A stretch of 64,000 nucleotides of DNA, taken from Candidatus Neomarinimicrobiota bacterium (GTDB lineage: Bacteria; Fidelibacterota; Marinisomatia; Marinisomatales; TCS55). The position numbers were made by a program, and so were the translations under genes. Location: contig JABIDL010000040.1 of the NCBI GenBank assembly GCA_018651745.1, positions 1-64,000 on the forward strand. Direction: 5' to 3'. Positions 8,699-13,065 of the stretch are shown here, piece by piece. The notes under the pieces were generated by a model. The model was not told where the DNA came from and searched no databases. It saw nothing but the letters and a program-made list of their open reading frames with translations. Every line of letters begins with the position of its first letter. The first letter of the stretch is position 1.

Positions 8699-10255
8699 TT
8701 AGCCTCCTAAAGCGGGAACTCGCACCACATCGATTCCAAAATCATATGGCAGGACACCGGCCCACCAAAAAATTACCATAGCGATCATCACCATGATAGC
8801 CACCGGCCATGCAAAGGTTGCCATTCGAATAAAGTCTTTTGCATCCAGTTGTCCGCTGGCATATACGATAGAACTTGCTGGTGTTCCGATTACGAGCCAA
8901 TAGGCAAGCGAAGTAGAAATAGCGAGCCCGACGCCCACTAAAATTGGATTGGTTCCGGAACTTTGTGCCATCTCGAGAACTACAGGTCCAATGACTGCTA
9001 CGGTAGCTCCGGCACTCATTAAGTTTGTAAGTAATGCTCCGATTAAAATCACCACTAATATAAGAGGCAACCCTGAACTGATACCAAATATCGCCATGAT
9101 ATCAATGAGGCTATCGGCAAGCCATCTTGCAGCGCCGGTTGCCTTAAATACAGACCCAAGACTGATTGCTCCTGCATACAAAATGATGACTCCCCAACTG
9201 ACATTTTCCTCATAATCTTTCCACGATGTCAGCCCAAGAAGCATAAATAAAACTGCCCCGGAAATTGCCACACCACCAAGACCTAATGGAAATCCAAGAA
9301 TGGAAGCGGTGACCGATTTATCTGTGATCCACATAAATATCAACAGCATCATAATCCCGCCAACCAGCCATTGTTTTCGAGTCATTTTACCATGTTTTTC
9401 GAGGTCTTTTTTCAAGACATTTACAGCATCCGAAAGATCGTTCACTTCTGGTTTAAAGAGTATGGGAAGTAGAAATGCCATAATTACTGACATGATGGCA
9501 GTATAGAAAACACCCATTCTCATCCACTCAAAAAATGTAATATTCGGGCTGACGAAATCCTCGAGAAATCCAATCATGATAGCATTTCGTGCTCCGCCTG
9601 TGGGACTCATCGGTGCACCAACCATGCAGCCGATAGCGATCGACATCATGAGCAATTTTCCCAAACGTGGTGCAGGAATAGTTTTATTCGTCATGGTGTA
9701 TAGAGCAAGTGCGATCGGAACGAACATGGGAGCTATCGATGCTTCGTTGATAAAAGCAGATGGAATTGCGGTGCCAAGCAAAAGCCCAAAAACGATGTTT
9801 CGAGTTTTAGTTCCGGATAGTTTAACCACTAACATCCCAATTCGTTTATCCAATCCGTATTTCACCAAGGTTGCACCAATCGCCAGTGATCCTGCAATAA
9901 ACCAAACCGCATCATGTGCGTAGGTTCCAACAATATGCGATGGGTCTGTTATGCCGAAGAAGAGTTGAACGAGCCCGATTAAAAGCGCTACAGCCGGCAT
10001 CGGAATTGCTTCGGTTGCAAAAAAGATAGTACATGCACCCAAGAGAGCGAGAATAATTTTCATATTCTGAGCCCTTTGTATAAGGAATTCCGCATTGAGG
10101 TCTGCACCGAATAGCTCACGGGCAGTAACGAGCATAGAATCTGGAGTTGGCATGAGCGACAATAAGGAAAAAATGATAATGCCGACACCGAGCCATTTGA
10201 AATCGGTGGTTTTTGCGAAACCGCCAGAATTACTATTAGGGAGTACAGAATCCAT
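8699..10255 (-). CDS. DASS/SLC13-type anion transporter with non-canonical ion motifs
   Basis: 518-residue polytopic carrier related to sodium/dicarboxylate symporters (DASS, ArsB/NhaD superfamily). The two-fold repeat layout is visible: FFATEAIPMPAVALL near residue 80, a first re-entrant region around 160-185 and the second around 405-430. The signature S-N-T triplets that bind Na+ and substrate in VcINDY are replaced: the first reads I-N-E (169-171, in FINEASIAPMFVPI), the second S-A-G (414-416, in MSAGATVAVIGPV). Substrate and coupling ion may therefore differ from the classic succinate carriers. It is divergent from the symporter gene that begins at 10371 and leads an operon with the small membrane protein. 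Confidence 0.85.
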   Translation of the reverse strand: MDSVLPNSNSGGFAKTTDFKWLGVGIIIFSLLSLMPTPDSMLVTARELFGADLNAEFLIQRAQNMKIILALLGACTIFFATEAIPMPAVALLIGLVQLFFGITDPSHIVGTYAHDAVWFIAGSLAIGATLVKYGLDKRIGMLVVKLSGTKTRNIVFGLLLGTAIPSAFINEASIAPMFVPIALALYTMTNKTIPAPRLGKLLMMSIAIGCMVGAPMSPTGGARNAIMIGFLEDFVSPNITFFEWMRMGVFYTAIMSVIMAFLLPILFKPEVNDLSDAVNVLKKDLEKHGKMTRKQWLVGGIMMLLIFMWITDKSVTASILGFPLGLGGVAISGAVLFMLLGLTSWKDYEENVSWGVIILYAGAISLGSVFKATGAARWLADSLIDIMAIFGISSGLPLILVVILIGALLTNLMSAGATVAVIGPVVLEMAQSSGTNPILVGVGLAISTSLAYWLVIGTPASSIVYASGQLDAKDFIRMATFAWPVAIMVMIAMVIFWWAGVLPYDFGIDVVRVPALGG

Positions 10256-10359
10256 GCTGATATGGTAAAACTGCCTATAAATCAGGAATTCTGCAAGAGT
10301 TTACCCGATAAAAAGGTCGGAAAACCTCCAAGCAGATTGTGTAAATTAGATGAAGCATT

Positions 10360-10364
10360 AGGAG
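10360..10364 (+). promoter_or_regulatory. Shine-Dalgarno AGGAG that fixes the symporter start at ATT
   Basis: AGGAG sits six bases upstream of an in-frame ATT at 10371. No ATG, GTG or TTG lies at a suitable distance in any frame, whereas the ATT opens exactly at the first transmembrane helix of the symporter. Confidence 0.6.
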
Positions 10365-10370
10365 TCGCAC

Positions 10371-11786
10371 ATTCATCCATTAGACACAACTATAATCATT
10401 CTCTTTTTGTCAGCGATGACAGGATTTGGCCTATGGCAAGCCAGATTGAACCGGACGACAGAAGATTATTTCCTTGCCAGCAAAACCATTCCCTGGGTTG
10501 TAGCAATGGGATCAATCGTTGCTACCGAAACATCTGTATTAACTTTTGTGAGTATTCCAGGGTTTGCGTATCGCGACAATTGGTTTTTTCTTCAGTTAGC
10601 TTTTGGTTTCATAGTAGGCAGGATTTTAGTTAGTTTTATTCTACTCCCATCATTTTTTGAAAAAGGGGTTCAATCTATTTATGAAATAATTGGTGACCGA
10701 TTTGGCTCCGGGTTACAAAAAATAGCATCAGGAGTGTTTCTATTTACTCGGGTGCTTGCGGATGGTGTCAGGTTTCTTGCGACAGCAGTCATTGTTCAAG
10801 CAATAACAGGTTGGTCAATTACAACAGCTGTGCTGATTATTGGAATCATTACTCTTTCATACACACTTTTAGGTGGAATTCGAACGATTGTATGGCTTGA
10901 CACTTTTCAATTCTTTTTGTATTTGGCCGGCGCCATGATATCCATTGTTTTCATATTAAATGCAATGGAAATTGGATTTGGACAGATGATTTCAGATTTA
11001 TTTTCTGCCGGAAAAATGAATATTCTGCGGTGGGGAGAAGGCAATCCGTTCATGAATGCATGGGCTTTCCCAAGTGCATTTTTCGGAGGCACACTCTTAT
11101 CATTTGCGTCCCATGGTTCGGATTATATGATGGTCCAGCGGGTGCTCGGATGCCGGTCGCTTCAGGATGCAAGAAAAGCTATGATTGGCAGCGGATTTTT
11201 TGTGTTCTTTCAATTTTCACTTTTTCTTCTTGTCGGTTCGATGCTGTTTCAATATCTAGAAGGGATAGAGCTCACAAAAGATCGGGAATTCGCTGTTTTT
11301 ATCACCCAGCATCTACCCATAGGATTAAAAGGAATTCTGCTTGCCGGAGTTCTTTCTGCTGCAATGTCCACACTCAGTTCTTCAATCAATTCGCTTGCAT
11401 CTTCCACCATGACAGACTGGTTAAAAAAACAATCCCTAAATCTTGCGAAACAGGTATCTTTTGGATGGGCGATAGTCTTGGTAGGAATGGCAGTCCTTTT
11501 TGATGAAAGCGATACAGCTTTGGTTGAACTTGGATTGCAGGTAGCATCCTTTACTTATGGAGGATTGCTTGGGTTATTTCTTCTTTCCAAATTCAATACG
11601 AAAATCCATCCTGCTAGCGCAATCATTGGACTCATTGGAAGCCTCGCCATTGTTCTGTATTTAAAAACAACCGGCATTGGATGGACATGGTTTATCGGTT
11701 TTGCTGTCATCACTAATCTTGTATTAGCTTTCCTTTCGCATTTCATCATTAAAAAAATGAATCTCAACAAAAATTATCATGCGTAA
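10371..11786 (+). CDS. Sodium:solute symporter (SSS family), probable ATT start
   Basis: Na+-coupled symporter of the SSS family (LeuT fold). The hallmark N-terminus is present: a first helix (LDTTIIILFLSAMTGFGLW), then RTTEDYFLASKTIPW and GSIVATETSVLTFVSIPG around the Na+ site. Starting at the first available normal codon (TTG 10407 or ATG 10416) would remove most of helix 1. An ATT at 10371 preceded by AGGAG restores it, giving 471 residues; the upstream in-frame stop is at 10359. Either the gene uses a rare ATT start or an ATG has mutated or been mis-sequenced. It overlaps the NamZ-like gene by eight bases, suggesting the cargo is a peptidoglycan sugar. Confidence 0.88.
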   Translation: MHPLDTTIIILFLSAMTGFGLWQARLNRTTEDYFLASKTIPWVVAMGSIVATETSVLTFVSIPGFAYRDNWFFLQLAFGFIVGRILVSFILLPSFFEKGVQSIYEIIGDRFGSGLQKIASGVFLFTRVLADGVRFLATAVIVQAITGWSITTAVLIIGIITLSYTLLGGIRTIVWLDTFQFFLYLAGAMISIVFILNAMEIGFGQMISDLFSAGKMNILRWGEGNPFMNAWAFPSAFFGGTLLSFASHGSDYMMVQRVLGCRSLQDARKAMIGSGFFVFFQFSLFLLVGSMLFQYLEGIELTKDREFAVFITQHLPIGLKGILLAGVLSAAMSTLSSSINSLASSTMTDWLKKQSLNLAKQVSFGWAIVLVGMAVLFDESDTALVELGLQVASFTYGGLLGLFLLSKFNTKIHPASAIIGLIGSLAIVLYLKTTGIGWTWFIGFAVITNLVLAFLSHFIIKKMNLNKNYHA

Positions 11787-13065
11787 ACTCATTGTCAGTC
11801 TTGCTTTAACAGTAATGAGTTTAAATGCTCAGGAATTCGAACATACTCGAGTTGTCAAAGTTCCGGATTTATCCTTTACGAACCGCGTCTATACCGGATT
11901 GGATATTCTTGCGCAAATGGATTACCGTCCGCTAAAAGGACGCAGTATTGCAGTATTATGCAATCAGGCGAGCGTCGATAGAAACGGTCGACACATTCTT
12001 GAAATTTTGAATGATATCGAGGATGTTGATGTTAAATATATTTTTCTGCCGGAGCATGGGTTGTTCGGAACCGATGACGATAGGTTACGGATGATCGGGG
12101 ATAAATCATTTGATCCTGTAACCGGTGCAAGAATTGTGGATTTGTGGGGTAGATATATTAAACCACCTCGCTGGGTGTTGGACGATGTGGACATAGTTTT
12201 GATTGATATTCAAGACACAGGCGTTCGTTATACAACTTACATCACAACTATTTCGAAAATCATGGAATCCTGCAGCGATTTTGATGTTCCCATTTTGTTA
12301 TTGGACAGACCCAATCCGATTCGCGGTGATCGTGTAGATGGTCCCGTGGTTCGAACGGCGTACCAATCTTTCGAAAGCTATCATTTGGTTCCGATTAGGC
12401 ACGGTCTTACGGTTGGCGAATTTGCACTTATGGTAAACGAAATGGGCTGGGTGAAAGATCTTGCACGTGCCAATCTGGTTATTATTCCCCTCAGAAACTG
12501 GAAACGAAATATGTGGTTTGACAATACAGAATTACCTTGGGTTCCGCCACAACCAAATCTTGATTCTCTCGAAACTGTAGTAGGATACATTGGTTTTTCT
12601 TTAGCACGTGGAACCAATTTGAATATCGGATTTGGAACAGATAAACCGTATTTCAGATTTGGCGCGCCATGGTTATCGGGAAAACATTTGAAGGATAAAT
12701 TGATTGCGCAGAATTTGCCGGGAATAAAGGTAAGCTCAGTGCGCTACAAGCCGGATGACGGTACGGGAAAAAAGATCCTTCCTCGCCACGGAGGTACGTA
12801 TTGCAGCGGCGTTGATATTTCCATCACAGACCGAAATAAGTTCGATCCACTTCGAACGGCGACTTCACTCATTATTCTGACCAGCAGATTATATCCTAGA
12901 GAATTCCAGTGGACAGGGGACGGTTATATTGATAAATTATTCGGAACTAGTTTATTGCGAACGTTTACAGCCCAAGAAAAACCACCTGAATATTTACCCC
13001 CTCAGTGGAATCATGATGTATTTCGTTTTAACCAGTTTAGAGAAAGGTTTTTGCTCTACGAATGA
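11779..13065 (+). CDS. namZ: Exo-beta-N-acetylmuramidase NamZ family (DUF1343)
   Basis: Secreted enzyme of the DUF1343 family, whose founding member NamZ releases MurNAc from the non-reducing ends of peptidoglycan. A signal peptide (MRKLIVSLALTVMSLNAQ) is followed by TGLDILAQ, GRSIAVLCNQASVD, FLPEHGLFG, LIDIQDTGVRYTTYI, LLLDRPNPI and IRHGLTVGEFA, all family landmarks. The 428-residue length fits. It overlaps the symporter upstream by eight bases and the outer-membrane-like gene downstream by four, which supports a joint role in sugar release and uptake. Confidence 0.88.
   Translation: MRKLIVSLALTVMSLNAQEFEHTRVVKVPDLSFTNRVYTGLDILAQMDYRPLKGRSIAVLCNQASVDRNGRHILEILNDIEDVDVKYIFLPEHGLFGTDDDRLRMIGDKSFDPVTGARIVDLWGRYIKPPRWVLDDVDIVLIDIQDTGVRYTTYITTISKIMESCSDFDVPILLLDRPNPIRGDRVDGPVVRTAYQSFESYHLVPIRHGLTVGEFALMVNEMGWVKDLARANLVIIPLRNWKRNMWFDNTELPWVPPQPNLDSLETVVGYIGFSLARGTNLNIGFGTDKPYFRFGAPWLSGKHLKDKLIAQNLPGIKVSSVRYKPDDGTGKKILPRHGGTYCSGVDISITDRNKFDPLRTATSLIILTSRLYPREFQWTGDGYIDKLFGTSLLRTFTAQEKPPEYLPPQWNHDVFRFNQFRERFLLYE

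Follow-up and report, generated by a model that had tools for sequence, protein, structure and literature searches.

Evidence for a conserved AUU start codon with a strong Shine-Dalgarno sequence in a sodium symporter gene of Candidatus Neomarinimicrobiota

The locus considered here raises the question of where translation begins in a gene whose reading frame offers none of the usual start codons ahead of its conserved protein sequence. The window (the whole stretch of DNA analysed, 64,000 nucleotides) is part of contig C40 of the draft genome G000, which has relatives under the name Candidatus Neomarinimicrobiota, and the gene encodes a predicted SSS-family sodium:solute symporter (Table 1). 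An earlier examination of the letters, hereafter the sequence-only reading, had noted that the frame is closed by a stop at 10359, that it contains no ATG, GTG or TTG between this stop and the TTG at 10407, and that AGGAG precedes an in-frame ATT at 10371 by six bases. Direct reading bears out all of these statements, and the ORF list agrees on the missing start codons. The AGGAG motif has a duplex energy of -6.8 kcal/mol with the anti-Shine-Dalgarno sequence and is separated from ATT by the spacer TCGCAC (10365-10370), while the codons that follow ATT are CAT CCA TTA GAC ACA ACT ATA ATC ATT CTC TTT TTG (10407) TCA GCG ATG (10416). Around the symporter start, a promoter scan returned no match on the + strand, and neither a terminator nor an Rfam element was found. 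Since the DASS anion symporter gene upstream is divergent, the SSS symporter gene heads its own unit.

Table 1. Positions of the features discussed, numbered from the first letter of the window.
Feature	Position	Strand	Remarks
DASS anion symporter gene, divergent, upstream of SSS symporter	8699-10255	-	
In-frame TAG stop bounding the symporter frame upstream	10359-10361	+	direct reading
Shine-Dalgarno AGGAG, overlapping the TAG stop	10360-10364	+	6-nt spacer to ATT; same AGGAGTCGCACATTCAT block in G001
ATT start codon (codon 1) of the symporter gene	10371-10373	+	same column ATT/ATC/ATA/ATG/TTG/GTG in relatives
SSS-family sodium:solute symporter, 471 aa + stop	10371-11786	+	PF00474, E=6.2e-28
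TTG, first usual start codon of the symporter frame, rejected as start	10407-10409	+	ORF list; CTG in G001
namZ, exo-beta-N-acetylmuramidase (formerly DUF1343)	11779-13065	+	PF07075, 220 bits; PF20732, 114 bits
infC of the window's genome	L164 (G000:C26)		

When translated from 10371, the protein matches PF00474 over profile positions 1-404 of 406 with 98.2 bits against a cut-off of 22.8, which places it in the SSS/SSF family, and its TIGR00813 score of 160 bits is below the 184-bit cut-off of that model. Several relatives in the PDB align from symporter residues 2-10 onward, the multivitamin transporter 26va from residue 5, so a start at 10407 or 10416 would cost the protein roughly half of its first hydrophobic helix. 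The proposal that helix 1 needs a start upstream of both codons is thereby upheld, and gene callers limited to ATG, GTG and TTG would shorten the symporter by 12-15 residues, inside its first membrane helix.

The most informative evidence comes from 134 related loci gathered within Neomarinimicrobiota, all or nearly all from draft MAGs, which were aligned on a conserved Asp corresponding to residue 5 of the window's protein. The codon four positions before this Asp (D-4) is usually the start, many loci having ATG, TTG or GTG there and others ATT, ATC or ATA (ATH), and in some clades a start ATG lies one or a few codons upstream of it. Among the 27 loci that have no ATG, GTG or TTG within ten codons upstream of the Asp, 26 carry ATH exactly at D-4, the remaining one reading NTG with a single masked base. 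At the neighbouring columns D-2, D-3, D-5, D-6 and D-7, ATH is present in only 0-3 loci, and the 13 occurrences at D-1 arise because Ile is common at that column. Furthermore, in most ATH loci an in-frame stop precedes ATH by a few codons, which leaves no room for a start further up, and the Shine-Dalgarno-to-ATH spacing among the loci lacking a usual start is mostly 5-8 nt. The symporter gene thus shows several features of the AUH-start class, namely a frame closed upstream, AUH in place of a usual start at the homologous site and a conserved Shine-Dalgarno sequence at proper spacing, and conservation of this codon column across the phylum places the observation far beyond chance. Two relatives carry a TTG slightly upstream (L086 at D-6 and L085 at D-9) together with ATT at the conserved start column, and one orthologue (L099 of G013) has a TAA inside its frame, which cuts the ORF to 149 aa and perhaps marks a pseudogene or an assembly error.

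The closest relative, G001, belongs to the same genus at 88% identity and has ATT at the same column, as does G057 from another family. The stretch AGGAGTCGCAC ATT CAT of G001 is identical to that of the window, whereas the two genomes diverge in the codons further upstream and, by synonymous changes (GAC/GAT, ATA/ATT and TTT/TTC), in several codons downstream. It follows that the ATT did not arise by local mutation or faulty assembly and that it serves as the start, not as an internal codon. The sequence-only reading had left open whether this is a true ATT start or an ATG mutated in this strain; its own proposed check, the alignment of orthologues, settles in favour of the former. A change or miscall confined to this genome is attractive in that ATG is only one base away and is common in orthologues, but with ATT also in G001, in G057 and in marine MAGs from separate assemblies, and ATC or ATA in others, such an event retains practically no probability.

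A start within the frame is also very improbable, although TTG 10407 and ATG 10416 are the first usual starts available and the ATT would then be an accident ahead of a protein lacking most of its first helix. Upstream of 10407 the protein sequence is conserved, with synonymous codon differences between the genomes G000 and G001, the TTG itself is CTG in G001, and no Shine-Dalgarno sequence stands at the right place before either codon in the window. Orthologues starting at the position of 10407 or 10416, which would have spoken for this interpretation, were not encountered, as those with AUG, UUG or GUG begin at the 10371 column. It is even less probable that ribosomes begin further upstream and reach the frame through stop read-through or a frameshift. 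The window's genome does have an in-frame ATG at 10350, three codons before the TAG (ATG 10350 AAG CAT TAG), but this ATG is missing in G001, and the stops of the relatives differ in kind and distance while a Shine-Dalgarno sequence nearly always lies directly before ATH. Initiation at AUU 10371 is consequently well supported by the comparison of orthologues.

Whether the unusual start is of any value to the cell is a separate matter. On a FastTree phylogeny of 104 proteins, the AUH state requires 10 changes, compared with a mean of 22.5 (minimum 18) for shuffled labels, and some clades are wholly or nearly wholly AUH, including one with ATC in 6 of its 7 genomes; the AUG genome L006 sits within the ATC clade. 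The mean Shine-Dalgarno energy is -6.70 kcal/mol at AUH loci (n=26), compared with -3.32 kcal/mol at AUG loci (n=70; p=1.4e-7) and -3.31 kcal/mol at UUG/GUG loci (n=29; p=6.6e-5), but both p-values ignore relatedness, which makes the strength of this trend uncertain. Its direction agrees with stronger pairing making up for a weak codon, as described for staphylococcal AUU and AUA starts (PMC13009471). As many relatives have AUG or UUG, AUH is tolerated or favoured at this site, not indispensable.

Near-cognate initiation of the IF3 type seems to operate in this group, since infC starts with AUH in all 30 related loci (L140-L169), with ATC in 26, ATA in 2 and ATT in 2. The two ATT loci, L147 and L154, read CGA ATT AAA, and their ATT is shifted downstream by one codon in the alignment. 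A census of 769 kb of G000 and 618 kb of G001, approximately 40% of each genome, rested on 138 conserved ORF pairs that do not overlap, not all of which are genes. Among these, a usual start is missing from the conserved beginning of just three genes, namely infC, the symporter gene and a lipoprotein gene that has a conserved CTG, which suggests that AUH is specific to certain genes and not a habit of the genome. The other raw pairs conserved ahead of their first start were set aside on inspection, since most were shadow ORFs, overlapped an upstream gene, or were conserved leaders that run up to a usual start. The lipoprotein gene (L180, G000:C21, near 10454, + strand; L200, G001:C25, near 14566) encodes a signal peptide with no preceding ATG, GTG or TTG, and its CTG, which an AAGG-type Shine-Dalgarno sequence precedes by 6-7 nt, resembles a CUG start. 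In light of these data, it is conceivable, if rather unlikely, that AUH is a genuine but neutral start, the strong Shine-Dalgarno sequence and a lack of tight expression constraint allowing start codons to drift without any valuable regulation by IF3. The use of ATG, TTG, GTG and AUH by this gene in different clades would agree with such drift, whereas the retention of AUH through deep clades, its stronger Shine-Dalgarno sequences and its rarity in the rest of the genome would not.

The likely function of the symporter is suggested by its neighbour. The start of namZ overlaps the end of the symporter gene by 8 nt, and namZ lies immediately downstream, often overlapping, in ten AUH loci. In L033, the SSF domain is followed by NamZ_N and NamZ_C in one 883-aa protein made from a single ATT, and in five other genomes NamZ is on the N-terminal side of the fusion. 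SSS-NamZ fusions of both domain orders occur in different Neomarinimicrobiota (L033, L032 and L034 (from 2001); L113, L115, L120, L128 and L129). This neighbourhood suggests that the symporter, a predicted sodium-coupled transporter, has a peptidoglycan amino sugar as its substrate, and since NamZ is by its Pfam name an exo-beta-N-acetylmuramidase, the symporter most likely serves to import MurNAc or a related sugar. MurT, the MurNAc transporter known from Tannerella, is described as forming a family of its own (PMC7670621), so an SSS symporter working with NamZ would be a different solution to MurNAc import.

Taken together, it is very likely that the symporter gene has a conserved AUU start at 10371 with a strong Shine-Dalgarno sequence, from which weak, IF3-restrained initiation would limit both the symporter and NamZ. 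Translation would begin at this near-cognate codon, positioned by the Shine-Dalgarno sequence, with the initiator tRNA presumably pairing with AUU despite a third-base mismatch. Initiation would be weak and, as with infC, held back by IF3 proof-reading, with the strong Shine-Dalgarno sequence making up for part of this, and the outcome could be a low, or IF3- and growth-responsive, amount of symporter, and of NamZ through the overlap or fusion. Low, IF3-sensitive expression is a reasonable expectation from infC, pcnB, sigR and the staphylococcal cases. The two proteins probably cut and import a peptidoglycan amino sugar, and the weak start probably keeps the transporter scarce or adjustable and, since the genes overlap or are fused, probably limits this uptake module. 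That the module is under conserved IF3-dependent control via AUU/AUC starts across Neomarinimicrobiota is a more tentative proposition, which we regard as possible rather than probable; if true, it would tie cell-wall sugar uptake to the initiation-factor state of the cell. The locus offers a natural comparative set, with AUG, UUG, GUG, AUU, AUC and AUA at one site and varying Shine-Dalgarno strength, which could test the trade-off between the two elements and the reach of IF3 control into metabolic genes.

To our knowledge, very few bacterial genes start at AUU or AUC, and in the open-licence literature no paper was found on non-AUG starts for this symporter gene or phylum. The symporter gene adds a new case to the few conserved non-AUG starts of bacteria, a transporter gene with AUU/AUC starts conserved over a large uncultured phylum. 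The textbook example of an AUU, AUC or AUA start is infC, encoding IF3, which resembles the symporter gene in its near-cognate AUH start, strong Shine-Dalgarno sequence and conservation. However, infC feeds back on its own product, whereas the symporter gene allows only a one-way effect of IF3. Staphylococcus cvfC1 (AUU) and ccpN (AUA) likewise combine conserved starts with strong conserved Shine-Dalgarno sequences, yield approximately 10-30% of AUG expression in reporters, and in the case of cvfC1 occupy the first position of an operon (PMC13009471). These are small or regulatory proteins of Firmicutes with experimentally shown starts, whereas the symporter is a transporter from an uncultured phylum, known through conservation alone. 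The GTC start of Streptomyces sigR is repressed by IF3 (PMC5472188) and is similarly non-canonical, conserved, endowed with a strong ribosome binding site and at the head of a two-gene unit, although it belongs to a sigma factor and is experimentally proven (PMC5472188), while the AUU of the symporter is derived from sequence comparison. The same AUU codon starts E. coli pcnB, where, according to Binns and Masters (2002) as related in PMC13009471, it limits translation; pcnB, which encodes poly(A) polymerase, was reported to be the second gene on the E. coli chromosome with an AUU start.
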